From: Laccaria trichodermophora
Taxonomy: Eukaryota; Basidiomycota; Agaricomycetes; Agaricales; Hydnangiaceae
Direction: 5' to 3'
NCBI GenBank assembly: GCA_018417955.1
Contig: JACTVC010000004.1
Span: 806,001 to 870,000, forward strand
DNA: 64,000 bases
The position numbers were made by a program, and so were the translations under genes. The notes under the pieces are model-generated. The model worked only from the letters and a program-made list of their open reading frames with translations. It did not search any database and had not been told where the DNA came from. Position 1 is the stretch's first letter, and each line of letters starts with the position of its first letter. This document shows, one piece after another, positions 2,168 to 31,785 of this stretch.

Positions 2168-2198
2168 GTTGCCACGTCGCTATCAGCGACGTGGCAAC
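2168..2198. repeat. Perfect 14-bp hairpin inside hAT-like copy 1
   Basis: GTTGCCACGTCGCT at 2,168-2,181 is the exact reverse complement of 2,185-2,198 around a 3-base loop. The same hairpin is in copy 2 at 20,298-20,328. It may be a structural or protein-binding site of the element; the function is not known. Confidence 0.8.
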
Positions 2199-3389: not shown

Positions 3390-3391
3390 TA

Positions 3392-3790
3392 TGGATCTCG
3401 ATTAATCAAAGACCTTTTGGATAGAAACTTTTGATTGATCAAACGGCTTGTTTAATCATACCGTAGTTTATGTACATTGTCTGTAAGTAGGTCTATAGGC
3501 GATAATCATGATTAAAGAAAAAAAAATCAACTTGATTGCAAGGGCTGAATTGGATTGACGGAAACATGATTAAAAGAACTTTATCGGAACAAAAGAAAAT
3601 AAACTTGATTGAAAGGCCTGAATCAGATTGACAGAAACATGATTAAAAGAACTTAATCGAAACAAGGATGAACCTTAAGTGAATAAGAAGGGGTAAGTAG
3701 ATGTGAGTTAAACTTGATTCAAAGGATAAACTTGTTTTAATCAATCCGAGATCAATAAATGAACTAATCGGTGATGGGGACATAATCGTA
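3392..3790. repeat. AT-rich subterminal region, left
   Basis: Holds the left inverted repeat and then internal direct repeats of AAACATGATTAAAAGAACTT type (about 3,560-3,660) and a GATAATCATGATTA palindrome. A degraded match to the outer end, TTTTAATCAATCCGAGATCA (about 3,737-3,756), is oriented as an opposite end would be, so this could also be a complete MITE of about 380 bp. There is no gene. Confidence 0.5.
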
Positions 3791-3855
3791 ACCTGGCCTA
3801 GAGTGATAGCCATTCTGTCAACATTTGGTAGAAATGGAGGTATAGAGAGAGACAC

Positions 3856-6800
3856 TCACTTTTTCTTCAAAGGACAGCCATCAGGCCTGACGACTGCAGG
3901 CGCCTTTGCAGCGATGAGGGTCGGAAAGGCATTGGGAGCTTTCCTCTTGCGTGATGGTCGCACCGCAATGGTAGGCGCAGTTCTGGCAGGAGCGCTAACA
4001 GAGCCAGTTGCACTCCTGGAGTCGGTATGGCCGCTAGGATTGGAGATTGAAATAACGGGTGTACTGGGACCTATGATCACGGCTGGGGATGTGCTGGGTT
4101 CGGGGGGGTGGGTAGGACTGGCGGTTGTGACAGGAGATGTTGCGTTCATAATTTGCAGGGATGCGCTTTGTCCTGCATTTTTACCACCATGACCCTTTCA
4201 ACCGCCACGAGTTTTACGAGCTTGAGGATAGCTTCGCCTGGGTTTCAGTATAACACCTACTGATTAGATTGAGTAAGTACATATCATAAACAAAGTAATG
4301 AAGCCTTTTCTTACCTTCATGCTCCGCCGGCACTGTGACATCGTTTGACATCGTAGCTGTGCTAGGGTCCAACACTGCCCTTGCGACACCCAAATTGGCA
4401 ATCTTTGCAATCCCACCATTGTTGCCTCCAACACACATGTTGCCCTCATCAACGCCGCCATCGACACCCTCATTCCCAACATCCTCGCCACCACCCTCAT
4501 TTCCGGTGTCCACTAGTGGCTACCACTTTATTTCTATAACCTAGACCCAAGCCTAGAGGGTCATTTCTATAACTTAGACATAAGCCTAGAGGCCATATCT
4601 ATAATGCTTAGGATTTTTTGAAAGGCATTTCAAATGTAGGCCTGGGTATTTCATAGTGAATTTTCCATAGATACCCAGCGCATTTTCTGCGAAATTTCAA
4701 ATGCAGCCCTGGATATTTCATTGTGATTTTTCAATAGATACCCTGGGTATTTCATTGGGAAATTTTCAAATGTCACCCTTGGTATTTCATTGCGATTTTT
4801 CAATGGATACCTGGCGCATTTCACTGCGAAATTTCAAATGTAGCCCTTGGTATTTCATTGTGATTTTTCAATAGATACCCTGGGTATTTCATTGCAAAAT
4901 TTCAAATGTAGCCCTGGGCATTTCATTGTGATTTTTCAAATGTATCCCTGGATATTTCATTGTGATTTTTCAATAGATACCCTGGGTATTTCATTGCGAT
5001 TTTTCAAATGTATCCCTGGGTATTTCATTGCAAAATTTCAATGGATACCTGGCGCATTTCATTGCGATTTTTCAATAGATATCCTAGGTATTTCATTGCG
5101 ATTTTTCAAATGGAGCCTGGCGCATTTCATTGCGATTTTTCAATAGATACCCTGGGCATTTCATTGCAAAATTTCAAATGTATCCCTGGGTATTTCATTG
5201 CGATTTTTCAAATGGAGCCCTGGGCATTTCATTGCGGTTTTTCAAATGTATCCCACATGTCAGGGTCCATGCAATGGGCTTCCCTGGAGGGTGGTCACAT
5301 GACAAATTACCAAAAATGGTCAAAAGATGAAAGTTGTAGCCCTACACTGTAGCTTCCCGAATCTGTTTGAATTATGTTCTGAAGTGCTCCCATTGTGGAG
5401 ATATGAGGTAAAGGAATTTCAAAAGTGTTGTGTTTTTTTTTTTTTTTGTGTTTTTCTCTATAAAAACAAAACCAAATAACATGATTTCAGTATATTCAGA
5501 AAGCTAAAAGAAAGGGCTACAATTATTGTATCGTGGGAAAAATGACCAAAAAAGGAAGGTGCATCCCCTACTATAAGAATCAGATATAGATTTACTGGTA
5601 GACTACAAAAAAGTTGGACTTAGACTACACAGTTTACTGATACACTATAAAAGACTACAAAAGTTGAACTTTGACTACAAAGTTTACTAATACACTACAA
5701 AAGCATGGACTTAGACTACAAAGTTAGGGTTAGAGTCAAAAGGTTATCTTGACTACAAAGTTTGTAGTGTGCGCTTTTTTATTAGAAAAGTTTGTAGTGT
5801 CCGCTTTTTGAGACTACAAAAGTTTGTAGTGTGCGCTTTTTTAGACTACAAAAGTTTGTAGTGTGTGCTTTTTTATTAGAAGAGTTTGTAGTGTCTGCTT
5901 TTTCATTTGGAAAAGTTTGTAGTTGACATGTAGTTTATGGTGTCCTTGGCCCTATCTATGTTATGGGGATGAGGTTGAAGGATTACCATCATATTGCCAG
6001 TGCTGCAGCATTAGTATTTGACATCATGCACAAGTTGTCTTTCACATTAGGAAAGGCCATTCTATGTCTTTCATATTGATACCTCCTAATTGTAAGCTCA
6101 TATGGGGATATGGCTGAAGGATTGACATGACATTACATATTGCTATTGCCACATCATCAGTTCCTCACATCATGCCCAAGTTGGCTTTCAAGCTAGAGAA
6201 GGCTATTCATGTTGATATTTACTCAATACATGGTCAACTTACAACATGACCTGTCTTAAAGACACCTCAAAGGATGAATCAGCCCATCATCCTACAGCCC
6301 TCAAAGACCTGTATCAAAGTTGACTACTATGCCCTATCAGTACCTCGGCACCCCCTCTCAGTTGGCACATCTTTGAGTTTGAACCCTTCCACCAAATCTC
6401 TTGCCACAAAAATTTATAGAGGTCCTCCTGGGCCTATTTCCGCTTTTCTCCATACACAAAAACGATGAATTGACAAAGTTCTGTTTTTTCGGCAGTCACA
6501 ATCTGTCACGTTCTTCTGCCAAAAAATGTGACGTTTTGTGACTGCTGACTGAGCGGGGGTGCCAAGGTCCTGGTAGGGCATAGTATCTTTGGGACAGGCC
6601 AGTAGCTATCAATGTGAAAGCAGACAGTGTGAAAGCCAAACTTGGTCATGATGTCAAAAACTGGTCATGTCATGTCAATCCTTCAGCCATATCCCCATAT
6701 GAGCTTACAATTAGGAGGTATCAATATGAAAGACATAGAATGGCCTTTCCTAATGTGAAAGACAACTTGTGCATGATGTCAAATACTAATGCTGCAGCAC

Positions 6801-9800
6801 TGGCAATATGATGGTAATCCTTCAACCTCATCCCCATAACATAGATAGGGCCAAGGACACCATAAACTACATGTCAACTACAAACTTTTCCAAATGAAAA
6901 AGCAGACACTACAAACTCTTCTAATAAAAAAGCACACACTACAAACTTTTGTAGTCTAAAAAAGCGCACACTACAAACTTTTGTAGTCTCAAAAAGCGGA
7001 CACTACAAACTTTTCTAATAAAAAAGCGCACACTACAAACTTTGTAGTCAAGATAACCTTTTGACTCTAACCCTAACTTTGTAGTCTAAGTCCATGCTTT
7101 TGTAGTGTATTAGTAAACTTTGTAGTCAAAGTTCAACTTTTGTAGTCTTTTATAGTGTATCAGTAAACTGTGTAGTCTAAGTCCAACTTTTTTGTAGTCT
7201 ACCAGTAAATCTATATCTGATTCTTATAGTAGGGGATGCACCTTCCTTTTTTGGTCATTTTTCCCACGATACAATAATTGTAGCCCTTTCTTTTAGCTTT
7301 CTGAATATACTGAAATCATGTTATTTGGTTTTGTTTTTATAGAGAAAAACACAAAAAAAAAAAAAAACACAACACTTTTGAAATTCCTTTACCTCATATC
7401 TCCACAATGGGAGCACTTCAGAACATAATTCAAACAGATTCGGGAAGCTACAGTGTAGGGCTACAACTTTCATCTTTTGACCATTTTTGGTAATTTGTCA
7501 TGTGACCACCCTCCAGGGAAGCCCATTGCATGGACCCTGACATGTGGGATACATTTGAAAAATTGCAATGAAATATCCAGGGATGCATTTGAAAAACCGC
7601 AATGAAATGCCCAGGGCTCCATTTGAAAAATCGCAATGAAATACCCAGGGATACATTTGAAATTTTGCAATGAAATGCCCAGGGTATCTATTGAAAAATC
7701 GCAATGAAATGCCCCAGGCTCCATTTGAAAAATCGCAATGAAATACCTAGGATATCTATTGAAAAATCGCAATGAAATGCGCCAGGTATCCATTGAAATT
7801 TTGCAATGAAATACCCAGGGATACATTTGAGAAACCGCAATGAAATGCCCAGGGCTCCATTTGAAAAATTGCAATGAAATACCCAGGGATACATTTGAAA
7901 AATTGCAATGAAATGCCCAGGGTATCTATTGAAAAATCGCAATGAAATACCCAGGAATACATTTGAAAAATCGCAATGAAATACCCAGGGATACATTTGA
8001 AAAATCACAATGAAATACCCAGGGATACATTTGAAAAATCACAATGAAATACCAAGGGTATCTATTGAAAAATCACAATGAAATGCGCCAGGTATCCATT
8101 GAAATTTTGCAATGAAATACCCAGGGATACATTTGAAAAATCACAATGAAATGCCCAGGGTATCTATTGAAAAATCACAATGAAATATCCAGGGATACAT
8201 TTGAAAAATCACAATGAAATGCCCAGGGCTACATTTGAAATTTTGCAATGAAATACCCAGGGTATCTATTGAAAAATCACAATGAAATACCAAGGGCTAC
8301 ATTTGAAATTTCGCAGTGAAATGCGCCAGGTATCCATTGAAAAATCGCAATGAAATACCAAGGGTGACATTTGAAAATTTCCCAATGAAATACCCAGGGT
8401 ATCTATTGAAAAATCACAATGAAATATCCAGGGCTGCATTTGAAATTTCGCAGAAAATGCGCTGGGTATCTATGGAAAATTCACTATGAAATACCCAGGC
8501 CTACATTTGAAATGCCTTTCAAAAAATCCTAAGCATTATAGATATGGCCTCTAGGCTTATGTCTAAGTTATAGAAATGACCCTCTAGGCTTAAGTCTAGG
8601 TTATAGATAAAAGTGGTAGCCACCAGTCTGGTGTCATCCTCGCCACCATCACGCTCATGCCCTGCAGCACCACTCCCGGTAGAAGGAATTAGTTGCGGTG
8701 TGGTGCCCTCAACACCCAGCTCTGCGGGGTGGCCTTTGTCGTGCGCTTGCTCCTCGCTAGCAGAGATCCTCTTGAGGATCTCTGACTTTGACCGAAAATG
8801 GAAGGGATTTGGGGAGGATGATGATTGAATAAAAAAGAGGGCAAGGATGTAAAGATTGGGAAGAGTGAGGGTCTGTGGGGCAACCAGGGGGCACGGCAGG
8901 ACGAAGGCCTTGATATCATAGTATGTGTCAGGCGATGTGGAAATATCCGCCCATGGGACGGAAGGCATCTCAGCTTCGAATGGCCATGAGGAGACTGGAA
9001 GATCCGGGGGTTAATATTCATAGAATGCAAGAGATTCCAATGACTACATACCCCAAAGCTCAGTTACGTATGATTTGAGTGTTTCCACGACCATCGGTGG
9101 AGCACTTGTCGTGAGGTCAACATCAGGAAATATTGGCATGCCACTGCCATTGCGCTCCAGATGTACCATAACTGGTTTACCTAGAAAAAATCGTTTAACA
9201 TGATTATAAACGTCAGAAAAAAACGTACGCGGAAGGGTGGCATCTGCGTGCTTGGCCCAAAGTTCATGAACCATCTTGGAATCGTGGGGTTTGGTGTTAA
9301 TTTGGGTACAGGTCTGCACATTGTAGCCAACATAGGAACTAATGTTCAAATTAACTATGTGTAATCGCATGAAAATAGGATGCAAGGATGTACATGCCAC
9401 TTATAATTCCGTCGTCGTCGGAATCACGAAACATGTAGGAGAAACTGATCAGGGTAGAACCCAGGTGGCCAGTCTCAACCAGCTGCTTCATGGCAAGATA
9501 GATAGCTGTGGGAAACTCGCGCTGATTTCTACATTGATATGTTATTTTCAGATGGAAATGAAATGAATGAGAACACGTACTTAGGAACATCGTTTGCAAC
9601 AACTTTGGCTTTGGCGTTCCAATCTTCCTGATTCACTTTGTGCCAAAGCTTCTTGATAGCCTTGTTACGTGCGCCGCCTGCAGGAATGTTGTCTTGTTCT
9701 GAGATTTTCTTATATAGTGTGGTGATTTCCGCTTCGTTCTCGAGAATGAAGAGACTCTTGCCCAAGATATCGAAGTTGAAGAACGACTCGGAAGGTATAG

Positions 9801-10265
9801 GGCAACCCTCAGAAGGCGTTGTACCTGCGGCAAGAGATATGGCCTTTAGGTCCCTTGGCTTCATTTTGTTGTTGGCATGGTTTGTAAAGCGACGCATGAT
9901 AGCCTGCAAGAAAGTGTTTAGCAGAAGTGCAGGGAGACTTGAGATAATTGTTGCACCTCGAGCCAGCCCTTTCGTCCACCCTCTTTCCTCCTTCGAATCA
10001 CTTCCCTCTCCTTCTCGCTGTCGGCAGCTGACTCATCTTCGCTCACATAGTTAGTCTGTTTCTCATCCCACAAGGGCCGAAAGAGGTCAGAGTCCAACAA
10101 GGGACCTGCGATCTCCTGCTTCGCCTTAGTGAGTTCCTTCTGATGCGCTTTCCAGTCAGGATTCAACTGGCGAACTTGCTCTTCGAAGCCAGTAATGTGT
10201 GAATCAATAGCGGACTTTTGCGCATCTGAGAAATTCCAAAGGCTGGCTTTGGCTCCGCGTCCCAT
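3856..10265 (-). CDS. Uncharacterised multi-exon gene, split by fold-back element
   Basis: Starts at ATG 10,265 (MGRGAKASLWNFSDAQKSAI). Splice-consistent exons are 10,265-9,957, 9,903-9,581, 9,528-9,401, 9,354-9,052 and 8,994 onward; all joints keep frame, with introns of 46-57 nt. The fifth exon is acidic and glycine-rich (AGHERDGGEDDT) and is cut by the 4.1 kb palindrome. Coding resumes at 4,510 in the same frame (GNEGGGEDVGNEGVDGG), runs to a donor near 4,317, and continues to a low-complexity Pro/Ser/Thr tail ending GCPLKKK with a GTGAGT donor near 3,859, so a further exon probably follows. A TGA after KTRGG may be a lesion. I do not recognise a catalytic domain; I have the impression of a TE-associated Agaricomycete family. 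Its product cannot be assigned a function. Confidence 0.55.
4505..4510. repeat. 6-bp target-site duplication of the fold-back element
   Basis: GGTGTC at 4,505-4,510 recurs at 8,630-8,635 on the far side of the element. In the host gene these are the GAC ACC codons. Removing the element plus one copy restores a continuous acidic reading frame, which supports the exact boundaries. Confidence 0.75.
4660..5255. repeat. 34-bp minisatellite, left arm
   Basis: Tandem units of the form ATTTCATTGCGATTTTTCAA then ATGTATCCCTGGGT, with substitutions such as GGAGCC for GTATCC and AAAATTTC for GATTTTTC. Because 34 is not a multiple of 3, three units make a 34-codon open repeat in every frame. Confidence 0.85.
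6327..6583. mobile_element. TA-flanked MITE at the palindrome centre
   Basis: Shares ends (CTATGCCCTA, GGTCCTGGTAGGGCATAG) and interior (TCACGTTCTTCTGCC, GATGAATTGAC) with the MITE at 2,804-3,070, in the opposite orientation. TA is present at 6,325-6,326 and 6,584-6,585. It forms most of the spacer between the two arms of the fold-back element. Confidence 0.8.
7550..8500. repeat. 34-bp minisatellite, right arm (inverted, expanded)
   Basis: Inverted counterpart of the array at 4,660-5,255, roughly 1.5 times longer. The difference in copy number between arms shows that the array changes length independently in the two arms of the palindrome. Confidence 0.85.
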
Positions 10266-10801
10266 GATAAAGTAGTTGGCAAGAAAGTGGGTGGAAATAG
10301 TGGAAGAGACAAGTCAACAAAGTTGGGTGGCATTTATTTCAGTCTTGAGGCATCTTAAGTAGGGCAAGGTGGCCAAAGATCGGTGGCCTAATCCGCACAG
10401 GAACCAGTGGTGGCCCTGGCCACTGGCCACTTTGAATGACTTATTATCCGCTTGTAAGCCTCACAGACACATTAGATGATATGGTGGAACATACCTAAGG
10501 GCTCTGTACGTCGATTTGCTCTAATTATTCACGGAATTTAGTCTGGTAGATAGTCGCAGCAATGACTACATAATACAGAAGTATACAATGTTGATATTTA
10601 ATCAGAGTCTTCTATAACTAACACCTCCTTTCCGTCTTCAATGACTTTCTCGTAAATTCTGCAGCGCTTTGAAGTTAGGTTGCTACCTCCCTCTCCGTGA
10701 TCAAGGTTTTGCTTCCTTTTGAGTCCTGGACCTGACCTCTCACTGCACACCTCTCTCTCCTTGCCTTTTGTCTCCTGTGTCGACTTATTTTCATGAAATA
10801 G
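10266..10801. other. Intergenic, no gene seen
   Basis: Upstream region of the minus-strand gene starting at 10,265 and downstream of the gene ending at 10,802. It contains a small GTGGCCA-rich cluster with self-complementary pieces (about 10,375-10,435), but no supported gene. Confidence 0.5.
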
Positions 10802-13571
10802 TCAGCCCAGCAAAGCATAGAGCCCCTTACAGTCCTCATCCTCAAATCCGAGTGGTCGAGTGATTATAGGCGTATCGCCATGAACATCAAATCGGCTCCA
10901 AGTTGGCATGAGAAGGAAATCTTTACGCCAGGAGTCATAGATTGTGAAGGGAGTGTGGGGGAAGTTTGTCAGGTCACGAAATTCGTGATTGATATACGGC
11001 GTGTATGATCCTTGATGTAAGTGTCCTTCAAGCTGGATAGGATCGTCATCCTTCTGTTGGAGGTCAGGCTAGGTCGAAAGAATAATTCGAACAGATGGAC
11101 TGACATCGAGGAAGACAAAGACTACCACTGAGCACCCCCCTGCTTCCAAGTCTCCGGTATCTACAAGTTGATAGTAAGCCATGAATCTAAACACAAACCA
11201 TTGAAATTACTGATAAGCGCAGCTTTTTCATCAAGTCCCTCAATAGCTTCCTTAACTTTCTCCCAGGTTGCACGATCCATGGCCTTAACTTCACCGTTGC
11301 AGCCAGTACTTTACCCTCCTCCATGAGTTCCGGCGGATTCCGCCGGAATCCCACGGAATGTTGGAATTCCACTGGGAATCCGCAGGAATGGTAGGAATGT
11401 ACAATTCCTGTGGATTCCCATGGATTCCCAGTGGAATTCCAGGGAAATTCCATGGAACTTCCAGAATGATTCCATGGATTCCCAGTGGAATTTGAATGGA
11501 AATTCCAGTCAAATTCCCCTTATCCTGATGACTTCCTACTCATATTTCCTTATAAAATTCACATGTAGAAGTCACACAAATTGAGTTGTTATGTATTTGA
11601 AATATATTATTACACACACTACACAGTTTATCTTAAAGGGAGGGGGGAGGGGAGGGACAAGGAAGAGGGAAGAACAAGGCAGGGGAGGGAGGAAGAGGGA
11701 AGGACAAGAAAGAGGGAAGGAAGGGGGAGGGACAAGAAAGAGGGAAGGAAGGGGGAGGGACAAGAAAGAGGGAAGGAAGGGGGAGGGACAAGAAAGAGGG
11801 AAGGAAGGGGGAGGGACAAGAAAGAGGGAAGGAAGGGGGAGGGACAAGAAAGGGGGAAGGGACAAGAAAGAGGGAAGAAGGGGGGAGGGACAAGAAAGAG
11901 GGAAGAAAAGGGGAGGGACAAGAAAGGGGGAAAGGGGGGAGGAGGGAGGGAGGGAATGGTGGAAGGGAGAGGGGTGTAGCTGGAAACTCACCTATCGTCG
12001 TCTCGTGTCGGCGTCGCATCGTCGTGTCCCATTTCGTTGTCACCTCGTCGCGTGTTCGCGTTTTCGTCGCGTGCCGGTGTTTTCGTCGCGTGCCGGTGTT
12101 TTTGCGTGTGGGTGCTGCCTGTTGTCCGTTGGGCGCCGGGTGATATTCGTGGGCGCTGGGGTGTGTGTGTGTTCGTGGGCGGCGTGTGACGTGGCACTGT
12201 GGGCGTCGGCGTTGTCGTTGTCGTGGGCACTGGGGCGTCGTCGTGGGCGGCGTTGGCGTGGACGTGTTGGCGTGGAGCCGTTGTGTGGGCGGTACGTGTT
12301 TTTCGGTGGGCGGCGCGTGTTTTTTGGTGGGCGGTGCATGTTTTTTGGTGGGCGCTCGTGTTTTTCAGTGGCGGTGGGGCGTTTTCGTGGGTGGGGTATG
12401 GTTTTCGTGGGTGCCGGGGCGTTTTCGTGGGCACTTGGTGGTCGTCGTTTGGTGACGTGGCGTGGCCGTGTTGTTGTTGAAGGGCGACGGTGGTGGCGTG
12501 GCGTTGGCGGCGGTGACGAGCATGTGGTGGTGGTGGTGGTGGAAGAAAAGAGTGGCCGTGTTTGGTGAGCATGTTTGCCAAACAAATGATGTTTGTTATC
12601 CATCGAAAATAAACAAGGAATAATACATAACAATGGAATTCCTTGGATTCCATCTGGAATCATTCCCGGAGCCTCCCGGAATCCGACCATTTCCATTGGA
12701 ATTCCTTGGAAAAAAGTGGGAATTTCCATGGAATTGGAAACCAAAATGGCTGATGCTCCAGCCAATTGCTTTCCATAGAAATTCCATGGAATTCCATGGA
12801 ATTCCGACTTTCCAGTGGGAATCCGGCGGAATCCGCAGGAACTCATGGAGGAGAGTAAAGACCTCGTTGCAGCGAACATCCCGAGGGCCCCTGCACTAGT
12901 AATAATTCACATAGTTATCAACAAAGAAAGTACCAAGAAAATCGGTCAACTTACAAACCAAGAGCATTGTCCAAGCTCTCCAGGATATCTCCGCCCCATA
13001 GATAGATTAGAAATGTGATGGTAGTTATTGCGGCACTTGGGAACCACAATTGGAGGGACGATACCGTCGACAATGTGGTAGAGGTTGCTCCTGTTCTTCA
13101 TTGTGGAGATATGAGATAAATGCAATTAGCGAGAGGAGCGCGTGTATGGGTTCTGATTTTATTCGAAATGAGCAACGTTCACCTGAATAAATAGGAAAAT
13201 TGAGTGCCTACAATTGTTTTCCTTCCTTATTATTTGTGCGCTTGAGCCATTACAAAAAGAATAGCTATGCCGGAAACATAATTACTGGCATTGTGAGGGT
13301 GGTGTTAAACAATCATAAGAAAAAGATCTGATATGCTCTGACCTTCATCTCTACAAGAATGTCATACAATAACTATTATCAGGACATCGTGCAGGCCTTC
13401 GATAACTTCATCTATAGAGGGTATAAGTATCGATAAACAAGGTGAATGTTCACTTACAGAGATTTCCTTCATCAGGATAACAGTCATCTTCCTCCTATCA
13501 GCTACAGCTTTGAAATCTAGCAATATTGATGCCAGCCCTTGACGACGTGTACTATGCTGATTGACTCCCAT
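10802..13571 (-). CDS. Uncharacterised gene with one likely membrane segment, split by hAT-like element
   Basis: First exon candidate 13,571 downward (MGVNQHSTRRQGLASILLDF) ends at a GTAAGT donor near 13,460. A clear exon at 13,090-12,959 encodes SSLQLWFPSAAITTITFLIY then LWGGDILESLDNAL, with one hydrophobic stretch of about 15 residues that could span a membrane. It splices (68-nt intron) to 12,890, reads ALGMFAAT, is interrupted by the 11,304-12,865 element, and resumes in frame as GEVKAMDRATWEKVKEAIEG after removing one GTTGCAGC. A further intron leads to DTGDLEAGGCSVVVFVFLDV, then PDLQQKDDDPIQLEGHLHQG and TIYDSWRKDFLLMPTW, ending at TGA 10,804-10,802. An in-frame TAG near 11,070 is either a lesion or an unseen intron. 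I do not recognise the family. Several exons contain no ATG, so a simple ATG-to-stop search misses them. Confidence 0.5.
11304..12865. mobile_element. hAT-like non-autonomous element III (1,562 bp)
   Basis: Flanked by the perfect 8-bp duplication GTTGCAGC (11,296-11,303 and 12,866-12,873). Ends are CAGTACTTTACCC and GTAAAGACCTC, with inverted repeats sharing CTCCTCCATGAGTTCC and GCGGATTCCGCCGGA. The layout matches the 1.61 kb elements although the interior has diverged: an AGAAAGAGGGAAGGAAGGG purine tract (11,635-11,960) and a GTGGGCG/TTTTCGTGGG GT-rich tract (12,000-12,560). There is no transposase. An 8-bp duplication fits hAT-type transposition, presumably in trans. It lies inside an exon of the minus-strand unknown gene. 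Confidence 0.85.
11635..11960 (+). repeat. Homopurine tandem array, about 27-bp period
   Basis: Tandem copies of AGAAAGAGGGAAGGAAGGGG then GAGGGACA, almost pure purine on the plus strand for about 320 bp. Such tracts can form triplexes or G-rich structures. The homologous tract in copies 1 and 2 has a different unit but the same purine bias. Confidence 0.85.
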
Positions 13572-19164: not shown

Positions 19165-19172
19165 CGCTAAAG
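19165..19172. repeat. 8-bp target-site duplication of hAT-like copy 2
   Basis: CGCTAAAG at 19,165-19,172 recurs at 20,783-20,790. The 8-bp length matches that around element III and supports hAT-type integration. Confidence 0.9.
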
Positions 19173-21388: not shown

Positions 21389-24300
21389 ATGGCACCCAAA
21401 GTGAAACACATCAATTTGAAGAAAAGAAATGCAGTGCTCGCTGGAATCTGGGACGAGGCAAACAGGCACACCACGAAACAATCTCGTCTTGCCACACACA
21501 CCGTTACCACCAACGCAGGATGTGAAACCACGACATTTGCACTCCCAAACGTACCCCAACTCCTTGCTCGACATTCGCCCCAAGATTCGGCGCCACTGCC
21601 TTCCAAGAGCTTACAACCCAACGAAACAAAATCATCCCAGCCAGAGGACGACTTTCCGAAGAAGACACAGGTACTGCATTTTGCTTTGTGAATGGTCGTG
21701 CGGCTCACTCACGATATCAGATTTCAAGTCTCCTAGATGCATTTATTGCTATCATGCCTCGTCTCATTCATAACATTCTCAGTTGTGAGGCAAACCTCGC
21801 TGCCACTGAATCCTGTTCTTGTGGCGCTGGCAAGCGTCTCGTTCAGTGCGACGATTGCACAGCCTACAAGACATCGTGTGCAGAGTGTTTTATTGTTGCA
21901 CACCGTTCTCTCCCTTTTCACTGGGCCCAAGTTTGGAGCAAGGAACAACAGTTTTTTGTTTGTCAAGACATCTCGCGTTTGCGACCTGAAGGTTACCCAC
22001 ATCAGCTTGGTCATCACGGCGAATCTTGCCCCAATCCAGCGAGCCAGAACGACATCCTCTTCCAAGCTATTGATACCAATGGCATCCACGAAACAAAAGT
22101 TCGCTTTTGTTGTTGTGCTGATACGGATCGGGTATACCAGCTCATGCAAGAAGGGCTTTTTCCCGCAACCGTTGAGAGGCCGACTATGGCCTTCACATTT
22201 AACGTCCTCAAGCAGTTCCATATTCATCATTTAGAATCAAAAGAATCCGCATATGATTTTATCGGGGCTTTACGACGATTGACTGACAACGCCTTTGCCC
22301 ATGAAGTCGCGGTGAGTCTCTGCTTCAGTTCTCATAACTTTTTACTCATTTTTTGTACAAACAGAACCCCTACTCCCAGTTTCGTCCCGTGATGCGCATC
22401 TATCACCTCATCACTGCCACCAAACGTCTTGGACAAGCGCATAAGATCAATCGGCTCTTGTGTAATCGTCCTCCTGGGAATCTAATGGTGTACTGCCCAT
22501 CATGTCCAGAGCTTGGGCTTAACATGGAGGTCGGATGGGAAAGAACTCCACCAGAGCTTTGGTAAGACATGCCGTATCAACATAGACTTTCACACTTTAT
22601 TTCAATTAGCCATTTGAATCAAACACAGGATACTGCGGACAGCAACCATCATGCAAACAAGTTTGCGAAAAACACCGATCCCAACGATGTCTCACCTTTT
22701 GCAGGAAAAGCGTATTTTCCCAAGGAAGCAGCATACCAGCAGTACCTACAGGATGTACAAAAGAAGCCCGCTTTACGGGAAGAGGTAATCATTCCTCACT
22801 TCATCGGGAAAACTACTCACCCACATTATAGAAAACTGCTTGCGCTCACCTCAATGCTGTCAACAAACAAAATAGGAAGAAATTCAAGAACATGGATATC
22901 ACTGGTATCGTCAACATCCAATGCCCACATGTTTTCATCAAATCGAGCGTCGACCTCCAACTTGGTGAAAAGTACGTTCTCTTTCAGCAATATATATATC
23001 AGAGGGCTGATCCCCAATGCAGATTTGCGAATACAGATTATGCTCTTGCACACTCTTTACGGCAACATCGAAGTCAGGGCAGCACTGGGAAAGACTCCGA
23101 GTTCCTCAGGAGTCTCGATCACCTTGTCTCTTATGACATATCCTGCGCTTACTGGGTTAACATCATTGATCGTTTTCAGGTTAATTTCCCAGATCTGATT
23201 TCCGACATTGAACGAATCCGCTGGCTGATCCCACTCGTGCATGTCCAAAATCACAAAGACAACTGTATGTATTGTTTCACATAAGTTTACATCGTGAATG
23301 CTGGTCATTTCCATGGTGAAACGGCTGAGCATTACTGGGCTGAGTCGAACCAGCTGGGAGCTCAGATGCGTCAGATGAACAATGGACATCATCAAGATAC
23401 TCTGATTGATCACCATGGTGACTGGAATTGGAAGAAAACCGCGATCATGGGTTCGTAGCCATGTAAGCTTTACTGTACCTGCAAGTCAATCCTGATGTTC
23501 CCTCCAGCCACCTCACTCTACACTGATGTCACGAATGCAAAAGCGCTCTTTATTCAAAAGCGTGATCATTTTCAGAGCCTCTCAATGATCTATTTGGATA
23601 GGGTTCCAGTCTGGAATCAGGAGGACCGTCAGCGTCGATTCTTAAACAAGAAGAAGGAGGTCGAATGTGTTTACCGTCACAACCCAGGTAAAGGTGAGAG
23701 CGCTTGTCAGATTCCTTTTTGTTAAGTAACAATCTTGAATGTCTAGTTCCCTCTCAAGCGGCAATCTATCAGTTCTTGTTAGGAGTAGAAGATGCAAGTG
23801 AAGAGAGAGCAGCGTCTGCTCTGCCCAAATCAGGAGATGAAATTGGTAGCGCCGCGTTCTTGAACGAGGCACTTTATATACAGTCTCTGCAGTAAGTTTC
23901 AAAGCCCTCCTTTCCTCACATCCGCTAACTGTCCGAACTCATAGACGAAAAATACATGCTCTTGTCAAAAAACAACAAGGCCACCTTTCAAAAAGCGAGG
24001 AGAATGATATTTTTGACCGAAGAAAGAAGCTATCGTCACGCATCGACAAATGGCGCTCCATCCAAGCGAAGGTCACACCCCAGGTAGCCGACGATGTCGC
24101 CTGACAATCGATTTTGGGAAAGGCAGCTGATCACCCCGAGGATGCCACTCTCTTCATCCCATCAGATTACGAAGCCCACGCCCTTGTCAAGCTCGATATG
24201 GTGGCCCTGGGACAGATAGAGAGGCAACTGCGAGAGGGCGCCGCTTTTGATGCCATTCAAGCAGTCCAGAACATCGTGAAGACGATAGGTGCCCTCGAGT

Positions 24301-25350
24301 CCGACAAGAAGAAGAATGTCTTTGGCCAGGTCGGTAACACTCGAGCTAGGGCCAAGGTCGCAGAGGCCGAGTTCCGCCGTGACTTAGCAATCTCAAACTA
24401 CAATGCAACAAGAACTGCCATGATCGCCCTTGGTCTACCGAAGGATGACACTGGCTTCCCTCTCTTATCCCTCCATGACACCTTCCGGCGACCCACTCAT
24501 CTCAAGCGCAGAGTTGGAGACTCGAAAACTAGCGATGGGCGCATTTGGACTACCAGAATCAACAGTGGTCGCCACGACACTGTACCTGGCTCGCAAACTG
24601 AGGGAGCGAGCACTCTACCTGTGGCTATGCAGGTATCAAGTCGGAAGCGTGCGCCATTTCTGATGTGAAGTCAATTCATTTGCTAACAATGCTCTACAGG
24701 GAAGGAAGCGAAGGAGGGGTATAGCCGGAAGGGCAAGAAACACCACCTCAAGCAACCGACTCCTCTTTCTGAGCTTCCAACAGCATCAGGTGAGTTCACT
24801 ACATCACGCTACATCATCAGATATGATTGAGAAACAAACCTTTCTTAGCTCCCCTTGATGACGGATGGATTTGGCGCCTTGGTACCATCGGGAAGGTATC
24901 AGAGAAAGATTTGATGGAGTGGGTGGAAGAAGGTCCGTGTCTTCTACTGTTCTTGCATTTGCTCATGTCAGATTGTCAGGAGACCGTGTCCAGTGGTTTC
25001 GTGCTGAGGCTGAAATGCAGCGTTGGCAGGAGGAGTGGGAAAGGAAGCAAGCGGAGTTCATGTGTTGTATCCGGAGCTTCGGGAAAATGAGTGACATTGG
25101 GGCTGAACTTTCCAAGTCAAGTCCAAGCGAAGGTCACGCCCCGTATGCACAGAAAAAATCAGCGATGTTCACGAGAATGAGACAGGTTGCACAGGCAAAG
25201 TTCAATGCAGCTGGGTACGCAAATGGCACCCTTGAAGAAGGGCAAATCCTTGCCAACCTCATTAAAGAAGACCATTGTAAGATGGAAACATCATTCCCCT
25301 CATCTTCCTCATCCCCCTCGTCCCCGTCCCCATCCCCCTCATCCCCCTGA
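21389..25350 (+). pseudogene. KDZ-superfamily transposase (CxC2 cysteine cluster), degenerate
   Basis: ATG at 21,389 (MAPKVKHINLKKRNAVLAGI). Splice-consistent exons: 21,389-21,670, 21,721-22,311, 22,365-22,561, 22,610-22,784, 22,832-22,971, 23,023 onward, all joints in frame. The second exon holds the cysteine cluster (CSCGAGKRLVQCDDC, CAEC, CCCADTDRVYQL). Next come YCPSCPELGLNMEVGWERTP, the AKNTDPNDVS segment, CAHLNAVNKQNRKKFKNMDI with HVFIKSSVDLQLGEK, and the transposase core (SYDISCAYW; GHFHGETAEHYWAESNQL; DTLIDHHGDWNWKK). The C-terminal helical part runs to about 25,260 (DRVQWFRAEAEMQRWQEEWE), then a low-complexity tail. TAA at 23,282-23,284 and TGA at 24,102-24,104 are in frame. KDZ enzymes mobilise large cargo-bearing elements in mushrooms; this one is probably inactive as it stands. 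Confidence 0.8.
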
Positions 25351-25535
25351 CCCTTCGACAACATTGTATCCCTTGTCGTCCTCATCCCCATCGTCTTCTT
25401 CACCTTCCTCATCCCCCTCGCCTTCCTTGTCCCTCTCACCTTCCTTGTACCTCTCGTCTTCCTGGTTGCTTTCCTTGCTATGTATGCGCAATCTGTCCTG
25501 TACCTCTCTCTGGACACTAATTCCCCCTTCCCAGC

Positions 25536-25540
25536 CAGCA
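25536..25540. repeat. 5-bp target-site duplication of gypsy element
   Basis: CAGCA at 25,536-25,540 recurs at 31,344-31,348, exactly outside the two LTRs. Five bases is the usual duplication size for Ty3/gypsy integrases. Confidence 0.95.
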
Positions 25541-25768
25541 TGTAATCATGGATTACCCTTGTTTGGCATCATCTTCCCACATACACATCACGTACACATG
25601 CTTTCGCATCTCTCTTCTTCCCAGAACCACCATCATCTCCATCTTCCCTTCTGTATACCTCTCACTTAGTTTTTCCAGAATCATACACGCGGTCTAGTTC
25701 TATCTGCGTGTTGAGTCGTTTTCTCCGATTTAGTGTAATCTATCCCCCTCATAGGGGATAGATTTCCA
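25541..25768 (+). repeat. 5' LTR
   Basis: Starts TGTAATCATGGATTACCC and ends GATTTCCA, giving TG...CA ends. Near its end is a perfect 11-bp inverted repeat, AATCTATCCCC (25,737-25,747) with GGGGATAGATT (25,754-25,764), repeated in the 3' LTR. Confidence 0.95.
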
Positions 25769-26230
25769 CTTTTTTAGAACTAACACCGTGTTTGTATACG
25801 CTGACGCGTCTTTACACAGTGGTAAACGTTCTCAGAATCATATCACCGTAACCGCCATTCAAAACCGCCCTTTTCCCGTTTTTTCAATCGTGCGTATAGC
25901 GCATATATTCACACCAGATCCCTATAACCGTTAACCGTAGTGGAGGGCCAACCGCCTGTACCACCAACATCGCCGCCCGTCTCTGAACTGTCATCGCCGT
26001 TAACACCTTTATCTGAACCATCACCGGTCTCAGCAACTGCAACAACACGCTTTACGCGTGCAACCGTTGCCACACGCCATCTACCGCTCTTGAACGAACT
26101 CCAGCCGCCCACACGTAAACGCCAGACGCGTTTTCCGCATTCTCCCCAACGTCGTTCTTCATTCACATTATCCACGGACTCGTCTAGTGACGATCAACGC
26201 GCATATATCCCACCAAAAACCACACGAAAC

Positions 26231-29200
26231 ATGTCGAACACCGCTACCGTCGAACCGACCAGTGGCAAGGCTCCCGTCTTAACAAGCGGGGATGTAACTC
26301 CATCCGTCATGATGGAATTTGAGAACGCATGTCTCGATTTTTTTGAGGCAAAATCTGTCCCCAACGACAAGCAGGTAGCTTTCGTCTTGCCTGGTATCCG
26401 GGACCTGCGTATTCGAAACTGGATTGCAGCGGACCGTGCCACTATCGTTGCCCTTCCTTTCGCCGACTTCATGACCCAACTACGCGCCAACTATCTTCAT
26501 CCAGACTGGGAGGATCATGTTTGCGACGAGATTTTGAACTCTCGTCTTGATCCGAACAAGGAATCCTTCTGGGCCTGGTCGCAGAACGTCATCAAATTAA
26601 ATTGCCTCCTCCGCAACACAACCTCAGTCTTCGACGACGCTACTCTTCGCAATCAACTCGATGCCCATCTCGACGATGGTCTAAAAGAGCGCGTCAAGCA
26701 TAGTGAGGCAAAGAAAGAGAAGACTCTGAAAGCCTGGGTCGACGCAGTTCGCCGACTCGACGAAACCCGTATCAGCGAGAACAAACGCCACAGGGAACTC
26801 ATCGAAGAGACGTTCAACAAGCGTCAGGCGAAACGTATCGCCACAGATACCAACAACGCCTTGCGTAACCCTTCTCGTCGATACAATGCAAACGCCTCCG
26901 CTTCTTCTTCTTCCAACTCTACGTCCACCTTTGTTGCCTTACCCTTCCTGCTAGATGCCGAACGGACTCTCCTCAACGAACATGATGGCTGTACCAAGTG
27001 CCGCAAGTTTTACGTGGGCCATCGCTCTCGGGACTGCCCTACCGGTTTCCCCTCAGGCAAGGGGTACAAAACATTGACCCTGGTGGATGCCCTCACAGCT
27101 AAGAAAGGCAAACAACCTTCCACTACGTCTTCCAACAAACCTGCAGCGAAACCCGTCGCGGCCACAGCACCGTCTTCCGACGAGGACGAACCAGATGCCA
27201 TCGCCGCCGTCTTACCATCGGCTAACATATTGGAATCAGATTCGGAGGAAGACGCAGACCTCTCTAAACGTGACATGAGTGCGCCAATGAAATCTAAACA
27301 TCTCATTTGGAAGTGCCAAATTCATGGACTGAAACATGACTTTCCAGTGAAAACTCGTGCATTGATAGATAACGGCGCGCACGTTGTGCTAATCCGCCCA
27401 GAACTCGTCGCTGAATTGAACTTGAAGAAACACCGTCTCTCTGAACCAGAAACCGTAGATGTCGCAATGCAGAATGGGCAGAACTCAAAATCGGACTTGT
27501 ATGAATATGTAAAACTCTCGTTGACCTCTCTAGATGCCGTTTGGACCTCAAAGACCGTTAAAGCGCTTATCGCACCAGGACTGTGTATGCCAGTGATTCT
27601 CGGACTGCCGTTTTTAATTCATAACCACATTGTTACGGACCACGCTTGCAGAACCTGTATAGACAAAACTTCAAATTATGATCTCTTGAACCCTGCTCCT
27701 GTCAGTCCTCCCCCTCCACGAAAACCTCGTGTAAAAGAGCAAATTGCAGAAACGAAAGCAGACAAAAAGTTGGTTTTAGCGGAGCTTATGTTGGTATGCA
27801 ACGACCGATTTAAGAACCACAAACTGCGCCCGCATGTCACAAGCGAATTTAACGTTGCTGGAGCAATACGCGATAGAATAGAAGTTCTGACAACGCAAGA
27901 ACAATTGATGAAATGTGACGCTAAATTGAGAACCGAGTTCAAGCAAGTGTTTGAACCTATTCCACATGTGGATGAACTTCCATCCGAAGTTGTCGCGTCA
28001 ATCAATTTGAAGAACGCTGAGAAAACAATAAAATCGCGCTCGTATCCCTCTCCCAGAAAGTACAAAGAAGCTTGGAGTATTCTAATCCAACAGCATCTAG
28101 ACGCAGGAAGAATTCGTCCCTCTTCATCCCCGTGTGCTTCTCCAGCCTTTATCGTTCCTAAAGCGAATCCAAATGTCCTACCCCGTTGGGTTAATGATTA
28201 CCGACAATTGAATGAAAACACAATCACGGACTCACACCCCATTCCGCGAATAAATGACATTTTATCAGACTGTGCCAAGGGTAAGATCTGGGGGACAATT
28301 GATATGACCAACAGCTTTTTCCAAACGCGTATGCACCCAGATCACATCCATCTGACTGCTGTAAATACACCTTTAGGTCTCTATGAATGGCTGGTCATGC
28401 CTATGGGACTAAAGAACGCACCTGCAATACATCAACGGCGCGTAACATCTGCGTTGAGGCACCTAATCGGTAAAATTTGCCATATTTACTTAGACGACAT
28501 TGTCATCTGGTCGCAATCCCTGGAAGAACATGAGCGGAACGTCCGAGAAGTGTTAAAAGCATTGCGTGACGCTCGACTTTACGTCAACCCGGACAAAACA
28601 CACCTTTTTTGCACAGAAATCAATTTCCTGGGGCATCAAATCAGTGCACGCGGCATCGAAGCCGACAACAAAAAGGCAGAGAAAATTGTGAACTGGCCTA
28701 TACCAAAATCAGCAACAGAGGCGCGGAGTTTTTTAGGACTCGTCAGGTACCTTGCCGATTTCCTACCAAGTCTTGCAGAATATACAGGCATCCTAACGGA
28801 GCTCACCACAAAGGAAGCCGAAAAAGCATTCCCACCGTGGACAAATCGTTACCAATCCGCATTTGACTCCATAAAAAACATTGTCATCAGCCGTGAATGC
28901 TTGACCACGATAGACTTAACTATGCTACCTGAATATAAGATTTTTGTGACGACAGACGCCAGCGACAAGCGCTCGGGGGCGGTATTGTCTTTTGGAAAAT
29001 CTTGGTCGTCTGCACGACCTGTCGCATTTGATTCAATGACCTTTAAGGGTGCCGAATTGAATTACCCGGTGCATGAAAAGGAACTGTTGGCAATTATCAG
29101 GGCCCTAAAGAAATGGCGGATTGATCTTTTAGGTTCACCTTTCTTCGTCTACACGGATCACAAAACTCTTGAAAATTTCAACACACAGAAAGACCTGTCA

Positions 29201-30955
29201 CGCAGACAAGCCAGGTGGATGGAACTAATGTCGCAATATGATGCGAAAATCGTGTATATCAAAGGCGAGGACAATTCTGTGGCGGACGCACTCTCACGCT
29301 TCCCGTGTGAAGAATCAACGGATACCGCCGAGCGAACAGCACAACACCCCTACGATTACTGCGAAGACAAATGCTCTTCCGTCGCTTGCATATTTTCTGG
29401 TTTATCACACACCCCCTGGCAAGCGGCCACTGCACTCGCGGATGGCCCTGAAATTATCTCAGTGAGCGCGACCTTGAACATATCCGCAGATAAACTCTTA
29501 CTGCAACAAATCCGAGATGGCTACACCGTTGATCCTTGGTGCAAAAAGCTACCATCCGCAACCGCAAGCTGGCCTGATTTGCAACTCAAAGACGGTTTGT
29601 GGTATGTCGGGAATCGATTAATTATCCCACGTACAGGTTCACTGCGCGAACTACTGTTCCAACTGGCTCATGATACCCTGGGTCATTTTGGTTTCGACAA
29701 AACGTACGGCTCCCTTCGCTCGGCCTACTATTGGCCGAACATGCGTCGTGACTTGGAGAAGGGCTACGTAGCATCGTGTCCAGAATGCCAGCGGAACAAA
29801 TCTTCAACGTCAAAACCAATAGGTCCACTACACCCGCTACCAATTCCTGACCAACGTGGGGACTCTGTCGCTATTGATTTTATCGGTCCACTACCTGAAG
29901 ATAACGGTTTCAACTGTATCGTCACCTTTACCGACCGACTTGGAAGTGACATCCAGCTGGCGGCAACACGCACGGATATCGATGCAGAGCAACTGGCCTA
30001 TGTTTTTTTTGATAAGTGGTATTGCGAAAACGGCTTACCAACTGACATCGTCTCCGACAGAGACAAATTGTTCATCTCAAAATTCTGGAAGGCCCTTCAC
30101 AAACTGACGGGCGTAAAACTGAAGTTGTCAACGGCATACCACCCTCAAACAGATGGCGCGAGCGAACGAACAAATAAAACAGTAAATCAATGCTTGCGTT
30201 ATCACGTCGAACGAAATCAACAGGGATGGTCTCGAGCGCTTCCGCGCATTCGCTTCCACATCATGAACACCATCAACACCTCCACGGGCTTCACTCCTTT
30301 CCAACTTCGGATGGGGCGGAGCCCGCGTTTAATCCCTCCTTTGATCCCGCCACTACCAACTTCTTCAGAGGAAGAAATCTCTGCACATGAGATTATACAG
30401 AAATTGCAAAACGACGTTTTGGAAGCACAGGACAATCTACTACGCGCGAAAATTTCACAATCTGTGGAGGCTAATAAACACCGCTCGCTCACTTTCCCTT
30501 TTGTTATAGGTTCACGCGTCCGACTCACGACACTTCATCGGCGCAACGAATACAAGGCAAAAGGGGAGAAGCGGGTAGCAAAATTTATGCCTCGTTATGA
30601 TGGACCGTACACGATTGTGGACACAGACGAACAGCATTCTACTGTCACGCTGGAATTACCAAATGCACCTAACATCTTCCCAACCTTTCACACCTCCGAA
30701 GTTCTTCCCTTCATCGAGAATGACCCTGTACTTTTCCCATCACGGAAATTCGAAGAACCTCCCCCAATACTGAACCCAGAAGGCGACGAAGAATTCTTTA
30801 TTGACAAGATTTTAGATCAACGTCGTCGTGGACGCGGTTATCAATACCTGGTTCGTTGGCGCGGGTACGGGCACGAACACGACCGATGGCTACCACGTTC
30901 GGAACTGCAAGACTGTGCCGCACTTGACGATTGGCTGGCGACTAGGGGCGAATAG
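26231..30955 (+). CDS. Gag-Pol polyprotein with C-terminal chromodomain
   Basis: The ATG at 26,231 (MSNTATVEPTSGK, 1,574 residues) is the first good start; the frame is open upstream to 25,940 without ATG. Order: Gag; zinc knuckle at about 254-269 with unusual CX2CX6HX4C spacing; aspartic protease LIDNGAH with D380, Asn where Ser or Thr is usual; reverse transcriptase with YLDD at 753-756; RNase H with D909; integrase zinc finger H1147, H1152, C1183, C1186; catalytic triad D1216, D1276, E1312 (DDX35E); GPY-type module RYDGPYTIV; chromodomain about 1,521-1,572 (YLVRWRGYGHEHDRWLP). Gag and Pol are one frame, so Gag excess cannot come from frameshifting here. The chromodomain is known in this group to steer integration to marked chromatin. 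Confidence 0.95.
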   Translation: MSNTATVEPTSGKAPVLTSGDVTPSVMMEFENACLDFFEAKSVPNDKQVAFVLPGIRDLRIRNWIAADRATIVALPFADFMTQLRANYLHPDWEDHVCDEILNSRLDPNKESFWAWSQNVIKLNCLLRNTTSVFDDATLRNQLDAHLDDGLKERVKHSEAKKEKTLKAWVDAVRRLDETRISENKRHRELIEETFNKRQAKRIATDTNNALRNPSRRYNANASASSSSNSTSTFVALPFLLDAERTLLNEHDGCTKCRKFYVGHRSRDCPTGFPSGKGYKTLTLVDALTAKKGKQPSTTSSNKPAAKPVAATAPSSDEDEPDAIAAVLPSANILESDSEEDADLSKRDMSAPMKSKHLIWKCQIHGLKHDFPVKTRALIDNGAHVVLIRPELVAELNLKKHRLSEPETVDVAMQNGQNSKSDLYEYVKLSLTSLDAVWTSKTVKALIAPGLCMPVILGLPFLIHNHIVTDHACRTCIDKTSNYDLLNPAPVSPPPPRKPRVKEQIAETKADKKLVLAELMLVCNDRFKNHKLRPHVTSEFNVAGAIRDRIEVLTTQEQLMKCDAKLRTEFKQVFEPIPHVDELPSEVVASINLKNAEKTIKSRSYPSPRKYKEAWSILIQQHLDAGRIRPSSSPCASPAFIVPKANPNVLPRWVNDYRQLNENTITDSHPIPRINDILSDCAKGKIWGTIDMTNSFFQTRMHPDHIHLTAVNTPLGLYEWLVMPMGLKNAPAIHQRRVTSALRHLIGKICHIYLDDIVIWSQSLEEHERNVREVLKALRDARLYVNPDKTHLFCTEINFLGHQISARGIEADNKKAEKIVNWPIPKSATEARSFLGLVRYLADFLPSLAEYTGILTELTTKEAEKAFPPWTNRYQSAFDSIKNIVISRECLTTIDLTMLPEYKIFVTTDASDKRSGAVLSFGKSWSSARPVAFDSMTFKGAELNYPVHEKELLAIIRALKKWRIDLLGSPFFVYTDHKTLENFNTQKDLSRRQARWMELMSQYDAKIVYIKGEDNSVADALSRFPCEESTDTAERTAQHPYDYCEDKCSSVACIFSGLSHTPWQAATALADGPEIISVSATLNISADKLLLQQIRDGYTVDPWCKKLPSATASWPDLQLKDGLWYVGNRLIIPRTGSLRELLFQLAHDTLGHFGFDKTYGSLRSAYYWPNMRRDLEKGYVASCPECQRNKSSTSKPIGPLHPLPIPDQRGDSVAIDFIGPLPEDNGFNCIVTFTDRLGSDIQLAATRTDIDAEQLAYVFFDKWYCENGLPTDIVSDRDKLFISKFWKALHKLTGVKLKLSTAYHPQTDGASERTNKTVNQCLRYHVERNQQGWSRALPRIRFHIMNTINTSTGFTPFQLRMGRSPRLIPPLIPPLPTSSEEEISAHEIIQKLQNDVLEAQDNLLRAKISQSVEANKHRSLTFPFVIGSRVRLTTLHRRNEYKAKGEKRVAKFMPRYDGPYTIVDTDEQHSTVTLELPNAPNIFPTFHTSEVLPFIENDPVLFPSRKFEEPPPILNPEGDEEFFIDKILDQRRRGRGYQYLVRWRGYGHEHDRWLPRSELQDCAALDDWLATRGE

Positions 30956-31101
30956 CTTGAATTTAAGTAGCTTTTCATTTTCTCCTCCTCGCCAGCCGGT
31001 AGCTTTTTTCCCACAGGGTTTTGACGCACCCGTGCTTGGATTTTTACTTACCCTTCTCACTGACGATACCTTTTTTCTTTTTTCGGTTGCTTTTTCTTTT
31101 T

Positions 31102-31115
31102 AGAGCGGGGGAGGG
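31102..31115 (+). other. Polypurine tract
   Basis: AGAGCGGGGGAGGG ends directly before the TG of the 3' LTR. It is the expected plus-strand primer site for reverse transcription of the gypsy element. Confidence 0.8.
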
Positions 31116-31343
31116 TGTAATCATGGATTACCCTTGTTTGGCATCATCTTCCCACATACACATCACGTACACATGCTTTCGCATCTCTCTTCTTCCCAGA
31201 ACCACCATCATCTCCATCTTCCCTTCTGTATACCTCTCACTTAGTTTTTCCAGAATCATACACGCGGTCTAGTTCTATCTGCGTGTTGAGTCGTTTTCTC
31301 CGATTTAGTGTAATCTATCCCCCTCATAGGGGATAGATTTCCA
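31116..31343 (+). repeat. 3' LTR
   Basis: 228 bp, matching the 5' LTR base for base by eye, including the inverted repeat at 31,312-31,339. It is followed by the CAGCA duplication. Confidence 0.95.
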
Positions 31344-31348
31344 CAGCA

Positions 31349-31783
31349 ATCCCTAATGTTGTTCAAATTATATATATATTCGTCCTAATCAAGTTCATTA
31401 TGGTGAGTTCATCAGTCTTGTTTGGACAAAGTGATTAATCGAATCAAGATCAGTAGTTTCAGGTGGATAATCATGATCATATAGGTTATCTTCGGATAAA
31501 AACATGTACCAGTACAAAGTAAGTTTATTGATCTTGTTTGGTCAAATCTATACTAATATCTTGATTTATAGCGATTAATCGAGTAGTGTCAGGTGGATAA
31601 TCATGATTATATAGGTTTACTAGTGTCAGTTGGATAATCATGATTATAGCTTTACTAGTGTCAGTTGGATAATCATGATTATATAGGGTTATCTTTGAAG
31701 AAAAACATGTACCAGTAGATTAAACAAACTCCTTTGATTAATCAAAAAAACTATTGAAAAGGTCTTTGATTAATCGAAATCCA
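31349..31783. repeat. AT-rich subterminal region, right
   Basis: Contains three to four direct copies of AGTGTCAGTTGGATAATCAT then GATTATA (31,585-31,685). It ends in the right inverted repeat of the candidate giant element (AAAAGGTCTTTGATTAATCG at 31,757-31,776, then AAATCCA). There is no gene. Confidence 0.6.
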
Positions 31784-31785
31784 TA

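Follow-up and report, generated by a model that had tools for sequence, protein, structure and literature searches.

Within a 64,000-nucleotide stretch of the Laccaria trichodermophora genome (contig JACTVC010000004.1, positions 806,001 to 870,000; hereafter the window), the two halves of one gene lie about 28.4 kb apart, and the locus poses the question of what kind of mobile element separates them. A preliminary description of the window, made from its letters alone, proposed a giant cargo transposon with inverted ends at 3390 and 31785 that carried a KDZ transposase gene, an SPT5-like gene and two further genes, all of them as passengers. Our analysis, to which we attach a probability of roughly 0.9, identifies the interval, here called E1, as a KDZ-superfamily DNA transposon that exists in few copies, bears three genes besides its transposase and sits in a repeated host gene; its copies conflict in their relationships in a way most readily read as past exchange.

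Ends, empty site and copies of the element

The element spans window positions 3381-31794 (28,414 bp), and its boundaries, in window coordinates, are arranged as follows.

3067..3373, minus strand: downstream part of the interrupted gene (PTIAVTKEALRDLKAK...)
3374..3380, unstranded: first copy of the target-site duplication, GCCTCCC on the plus strand, present once in the uninterrupted paralogue L066
3381..3389, unstranded: outermost 9 bp of the AAAAAACTC end ("right" end), identical in E1-E5
3390..3457, plus strand: inverted repeat of one end, about 66-70 bp, with one GATTAATC palindrome
31716..31785, minus strand: inverted repeat at the opposite end; its two GATTAATC palindromes are spaced by 32 bp
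31786..31794, unstranded: terminal 9 bp at the "left" (CYGTAAYCA) end, which reads CCGTAATCA here on the minus strand, common to E1-E4
31795..31801, unstranded: second copy of the target-site duplication, GCCTCCC on the plus strand
31802..31868, minus strand: upstream part of the interrupted gene (...FPGIIRDGKLREA)

Evidence for an exact empty site comes from relatives of the interrupted gene. The protein encoded by the joined E1 flanks has 13 matches in the organism's own assembly (59.0 Mb, 77 contigs), two being the E1 flanks themselves, and the interrupted gene therefore belongs to a repeated family; none of its scanned pieces matches Pfam. Its best paralogue (C67:1594796-1595173) is stop-free and 94% identical over residues 1-126. 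In DNA, the joined flanks align with this paralogue at 194 of 200 positions with zero gaps and a single GGGAGGC, and with a second paralogue on C23 at 158 of 198. Because the alignment crosses the junction with only one GGGAGGC, this 7-bp motif, which reads GCCTCCC on the plus strand at 3374-3380 and 31795-31801, is the target-site duplication, and the element lies between its two copies. The empty-site check suggested in the preliminary description is thereby positive, and its claim of a single gene split with the frame kept on either side holds, as the intact paralogue shows both halves to come from one gene. The residues that it had read across the join (RNH|RVFW) do not stand; they are element sequence, and the uninterrupted paralogue reads KLREA-PTIAV at this place. 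A pattern search for that proposed join returned only two sites, each with 3 mismatches, and the reversed control also returned two.

When 2 mismatches were allowed, the 18-base end matched 17 sites in the assembly and the reversed-pattern control matched none; the 8 sites with 0-1 mismatch form four inverted pairs, a result far above chance. These are E1 and three further full copies, to which a 121-bp end query, whose nine matches are the eight ends of E1-E4 and one more, added a lone end.

E2, C34:2840248-2855167: 14.9 kb, inverted pair of ends
E3, C9:818430-829361: 10.9 kb, inverted pair of ends
E4, C20:629517-682511: 53 kb, inverted pair of ends
E5, C14:348876: lone end

E1-E4 are colinear by blastn, and E2 is nearly free of later insertions. 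Further intervals bounded by the same ends, which the preliminary description had asked for, are thus at hand, and the ends pair as the inverted ends of colinear copies rather than as independent miniature inverted-repeat transposable elements (MITEs).

In all nine ends examined (both ends of E1-E4 and one of E5), one of two 9-bp tails lies outside the TA at which the inverted repeat begins: CYGTAAYCA at four, one from each of E1-E4, and AAAAAACTC at the other five, identical throughout. Since each of the nine ends has such a tail, the TA is part of the element and not a duplication, and the outer bases CYGTAAYCA and GAGTTTTTT count as element sequence, not target site. The inverted repeat proper, of about 66 bp, consequently begins 9 bp inside the element ends, so that the termini read CY..TT with subterminal inverted repeats; the palindrome GATTAATC occurs at positions 11 and 43-44 from the TA at both ends of E2-E4, and one of the four is altered in E1. 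Directly outside the tails stand perfect 7-of-7 direct repeats in E1 (GGGAGGC), E3 (GCAGTGC) and E4 (GACTTGG). A common target gene was considered as the source of the 9 bp shared outside the TA and was rejected, since the flanks of the copies differ beyond those 9 bp and the search for the proposed join gave no more sites than its control. The inverted ends first noted at 3390 and 31785 are real, while the element extends 9 bp further on each side, and what accompanies its removal is a 7-bp duplication rather than one TA. We hold the element, its ends, its duplication and its empty site with high confidence.

A KDZ transposase as the element's own enzyme

The genes first noted inside the interval are borne out, and are placed as follows (N1 to N3 are later insertions described below).

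3879..10265, minus strand: gene D, starting MGRGAKASLW, interrupted by N1; 3' limit approximate, transferred from E2 by alignment
10598..13101, minus strand: gene C, interrupted by N2
14057..17576, minus strand: SPT5-like gene with NGN and KOW domains, interrupted by N3; limits approximate
21389..25350, plus strand: CxC2-KDZ transposase gene; limits approximate, domains scanned in E2

In E2, the transposase matches the Pfam families KDZ (PF18758, E 1.1e-28) and CxC2 (PF18803, E 1e-12). The KDZ superfamily, reportedly named by Iyer in 2014, has 182 matches in this genome, of which only the best candidates were scored; the KDZ genes of E1, E2 and E3 are among the listed matches, and that of E4 was recognized by alignment to E2. 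Every full copy, E3 included, has this gene at the equivalent position within the shared ends, and KDZ is therefore the element's own enzyme and not its cargo, as had initially been supposed.

This placement bears on two other identities for E1. One is a TA-duplicating element, whether Tc1/mariner-like or a giant MITE, that a separate KDZ unit entered later; the preliminary description had similarly considered a new TA-flanked type or a KDZ unit sitting inside a TA-MITE. Both inverted repeats do start at TA, and a TA can stay in the reading frame, but the 9-bp tails lie outside the TA at nine of nine ends, the empty site has neither the TA nor the tail bases, and the KDZ gene is constant in position; no TA duplication appears in the flanks of the copies, the empty-site alignment refutes one for E1, and we regard this origin as very improbable. 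The other is a Starship-type giant element with a tyrosine-recombinase captain, which the size and the cargo genes could recall. No DUF3435/YR domain was found in the 20 open reading frame pieces of E1 and E2 scanned with Pfam, and with a KDZ gene in every full copy, a Starship is extremely improbable.

The C-terminal exon of the transposase is 61-100% identical in the five copies only, with the next best of 65 matches at 34%. Among public proteins, 212 homologues were found, and of the 120 listed, 117 by eye contain CxC2. The best two listed cover 100% of the query at 48% and 79% of it at 53%, and short entries attain up to 60% at a coverage of 48%; by their usual classification, the organisms that this list names all belong to the Agaricomycetes. 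In a midpoint-rooted tree of 113 tips, including 109 public homologues, the E1-E4 transposases form an exclusive clade with support 1.0; the public KDZ proteins in this tree are without subgroup labels, none being a named Kyakuja, Dileera or Zisupton reference. Ratios of nonsynonymous to synonymous divergence (dN/dS), computed by the Nei-Gojobori method with stop codons dropped, are 0.41-0.71 for the transposases of E1 and E2 and 0.03-0.35 for other pairs, two pairs being saturated, and lie below 0.5 in nearly all pairs across the exons of the transposase, the SPT5-like gene and genes C and D. Duplications in the KDZ superfamily are 7-8 bp, with 4-8 bp reported; they are 7 bp in E1, E3 and E4, and absent in E2. 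Judged by its sequence, E1 is a KDZ-superfamily element, placed here in no subgroup and set apart by its ends and its cargo. The predicted KDZ protein would bind the palindromes in the inverted repeats and move the element by cut-and-paste with 7-bp staggered cuts.

Conflicting similarity among the copies

The copies differ in which of the others they resemble from one region to the next. Measured in 500-bp bins along E2, positions 301-3300 are 83-90% identical to E3 and 71-84% to E4, positions 3301-4800 are 73-77% identical to E3 and 80-83% to E4, and from 10801 on, where both align, identity is 66-86% to E3 and 87-94% to E4. Site patterns were counted where E2, E3 and E4 are all aligned. For sites 301-3300, E2 agrees with E3 at 414, E2 with E4 at 126 and E3 with E4 at 76; the corresponding counts are 121, 213 and 103 for sites 3301-4900, and 78, 551 and 53 for sites 10801-15220 (chi-square 490, a guide only, as sites are treated as independent). 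E2 is thus nearest to E3 in the transposase half (414 against 126) and to E4 in the cargo half (551 against 78). The identity of E1 and E2 varies as well, at 95.6%, 91.6% and 96.7% in three segments.

Silent divergence (dS) in the exons gives a similar conflict. In the C-terminal and catalytic exons of the transposase, E2 and E3 differ by a dS of 0.30 and 0.41, and E2 and E4 by 1.29 or to saturation. The order is reversed in the N-terminal exon of the same gene (E2-E3 0.85, E2-E4 0.52) and in three exons of gene D (E2-E4 0.17-0.27, E2-E3 1.27-2.28). A tree of the C-terminal and catalytic exons groups E1, E2 and E3 (support 0.888), whereas one of gene D groups E1, E2 and E4 (support 0.989; 7 sequences, 111 residues).

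Unequal rates or loss, in place of exchange, could in principle yield conflicting similarities. Full copies number just four, some comparisons have saturated dS, and the protein identities of the catalytic exon are close (E2-E3 88%, E2-E4 85%), so the case in that exon rests on silent sites. Neither process readily accounts for an order of dS that reverses between these transposase exons and gene D, and already within the transposase gene at its N-terminal exon, or for the conflict of the exon trees, and we consider this explanation improbable. The simplest reading of the conflict between the transposase half and the cargo half is recombination or gene conversion between copies. Our confidence in module exchange is high for the pattern and moderate for the mechanism. 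The mosaic nature of the copies is new.

Accessory genes, nested insertions and known systems

Each of the four full copies contains genes C and D, and gene D is found in E5 as well. A 219-residue piece of gene D has ten matches in the genome, all in E1-E5, and only 3 public homologues of gene D were found; neither gene has a Pfam match in the pieces scanned. For gene C, dN/dS is 0.29-0.38 among E1, E2 and E4, with dS saturated against E3. Among the same three copies, gene D gives 0.17-0.24 in two exons and 0.24-0.42 in the third, and 0.08-0.23 in pairs with E3; exon 2 at first gave values near or above 1 in a frame judged to be wrong, and the values here use the frame of the gene model. Both genes may help transposition or maintenance of the element.

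The SPT5-like gene is present in E1, E2, E4 and E5 and absent from E3. Its window copy has Pfam NGN, KOW, KOW2 and KOW4 matches above cut-off, with KOW5 in a later E2 exon, and one window exon aligns to the SPT5 chain 7nky (E 4.1e-20, residues 24-342). A search of solved structures with this exon returned 15 sequences with E no higher than 0.01; the least significant (9.2e-4) is the plant protein RNA-directed DNA methylation 3. One public homologue of the SPT5-like protein, a Coemansia SPT5, was found within a ceiling of 7991 candidates. Within this genome, SPT5-like sequences have 77 matches, merged by hand to 58 loci, most of them outside the E1-E5 family. In Agrocybe pediades, the gene model P0021, one of the 120 listed of 212 transposase homologues, combines a CxC2-KDZ protein with an SPT5-like part (23% identity over 201 residues); this fusion may be an annotation merger of chance neighbours and is no more than suggestive. 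We found no description of SPT5-like cargo in a KDZ element in the open-licence literature searched.

Some of these loci belong to a repeated unit, typified by L068 (C34:2859200-2865300) and found also at C23:3249662, C34:2207244, C4:624730 and C76:147320/157459, which contains an SPT5-like gene and WD40-like exons below the Pfam cut-off. It has no listed KDZ place within 15 kb, and neither a transposase nor a left end was found for it. Elsewhere, C2:297-308 kb, C7:5-16 kb and C12:4-15 kb, the latter two near contig starts, agree in the order and, roughly, the spacing of three features: a Plavaka match, the SPT5-upstream region as an inverted copy, and a distant SPT5-like gene. SPT5-like copies at C29:10748, C37:331888, C73:21832 and C11:1179346 have identical scores (388.4 bits) and are perhaps recent duplicates.

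The SPT5-like block could be a separate transposon, inserted into an ancestor shared by E1, E2, E4 and E5, and hence a passenger and not an accessory gene; this is a serious contender, at somewhat less than even odds. It would fit the absence of the block from E3, the colinearity of L068-type loci with E2 over a 4.3-kb span (5643-9942, E2 numbering), the repetition of the L068 type in the genome at 82-97% over 6.1 kb, and the ending of four other L068-type copies at L068:6090-6091, 10 bp before the query end. Against it, the flanks of the block in E2 revealed neither inverted repeats nor a duplication, save a small E2-specific insertion, and the coding exons of the block have a dN/dS of 0.15-0.41 among E1, E2 and E4. 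The intergenic DNA of E3, which has no homology and no recognizable empty site of the block, weighs neither way. An L068-type unit may have been the donor or the recipient of the block, at about dS 0.3-0.4. If it is instead an accessory gene of the KDZ element, its protein might act on element transcription or against silencing, by analogy with the role proposed for TET/JBP in other KDZ elements.

Several observations weigh against the overall interpretation of E1 as a KDZ transposon with its own accessory genes. The E2 flanks match at 2 of 7 bases and show no duplication, the outermost 9 bp at the two ends are not inverted repeats of each other, and the 121-bp end query of the genome did not find a left end of E5. 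Stop codons lie within the matches to the transposase C-terminal exon in E1, E3, E4 and E5. Outside the family, proximity tests against 150 listed KDZ places show no enrichment of SPT5-like loci: of 54 hand-merged loci, none falls within 5 kb, where 1.4 would be expected, and the number rises to 2 at 10 kb (about 2.7 expected) and 3 at 15 kb (4.0 expected).

Aligned to E2, E1 contains five nested insertions.

4510..8632, unstranded: N1, foldback-like, interrupts gene D
11303..12867, unstranded: N2, adjacent direct repeat CGTTGCAGC, interrupts gene C
14962..15967, unstranded: N3, no clear duplication, interrupts the SPT5-like gene
19172..20783, unstranded: N4, adjacent 8-bp direct repeat CGCTAAAG
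25541..31343 (about 25540-31346 in the alignment to E2), plus strand: N5, Ty3/Gypsy chromodomain long terminal repeat element, adjacent direct repeat CAGCA

They sum to about 14.1 kb, so E1 without them measures about 14.3 kb of its 28.4 kb, near the 14.9 kb of E2 and the earlier estimate of about 15 kb. An 8-bp direct repeat, CGCCACCA, lies near but not at the edges of N1, in repetitive DNA, and there is no clean duplication; the halves of N1 are inverted copies made of internal repeats, about 91-95% identical in the longest pairs. N4 matches window 1043-2652, just outside E1, without a difference along 1610 bp, and this pair of 1.6-kb insertions points to recent movement of a small element. 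The terminal repeats of N5 (229 bp) are 100% identical. A small insertion in E2, at about C34:2850222-2850601, has 26-bp inverted ends and is absent from E1.

KDZ1-KDZ3 of Cryptococcus neoformans, of about 9-11 kb, have a transposase with a cysteine cluster, CxC1 domains, terminal inverted repeats (TIRs) of 139-241 bp and duplications of 8 bp (KDZ1) or 4-8 bp (KDZ2/3) (PMC12810828). The E1 family shares the KDZ transposase with a cysteine cluster and the inverted repeats, but its repeat is only about 66 bp and starts 9 bp inside the ends, its domain is CxC2, and it carries genes C, D and, in most copies, the SPT5-like gene. Two TET-positive Kyakuja families of Laccaria bicolor have 7-bp duplications, CA..TG ends and no TIRs (Kojima 2025, PMC12730594). 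Like them, E1 belongs to the KDZ superfamily and has 7-bp duplications and extra genes beside the transposase; unlike them, it ends in CY..TT and has subterminal inverted repeats, and the scanned open reading frame pieces of its family yielded no TET/JBP domain. As the CA..TG ends and the lack of TIRs are reported for two Laccaria families, these traits may not define the Kyakuja subgroup. Zisupton and Dileera are also KDZ-superfamily elements, TIRs being described for Zisupton, and have 8-bp duplications (PMC12730594); the E1 family resembles Zisupton in its inverted repeats and differs from both in its 7-bp duplication. Starships are large fungal transposons with cargo and a tyrosine-recombinase captain, usually much larger (PMC13066641), and the E1 family, itself large and with cargo genes, differs in its KDZ enzyme.

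KDZ elements, called understudied in work on Marasmius oreades (PMC8290104), are abundant in mushroom-type genomes, as their matches in this genome illustrate. In the family described here, the ends and an empty site are exactly defined and the exons of the gene set look constrained. The family shows that genes other than TET/JBP travel with a KDZ transposase, one of them related to a general transcription elongation factor. It is conceivable, though we think it rather unlikely, that this KDZ lineage evolves by swapping transposase and cargo halves, which stay within a common pair of ends, between deep lineages in one genome, and keeps an SPT5 relative to drive or de-silence transcription of the element. 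The chimera-like copies bear on any phylogeny or consensus that treats such elements as wholes.

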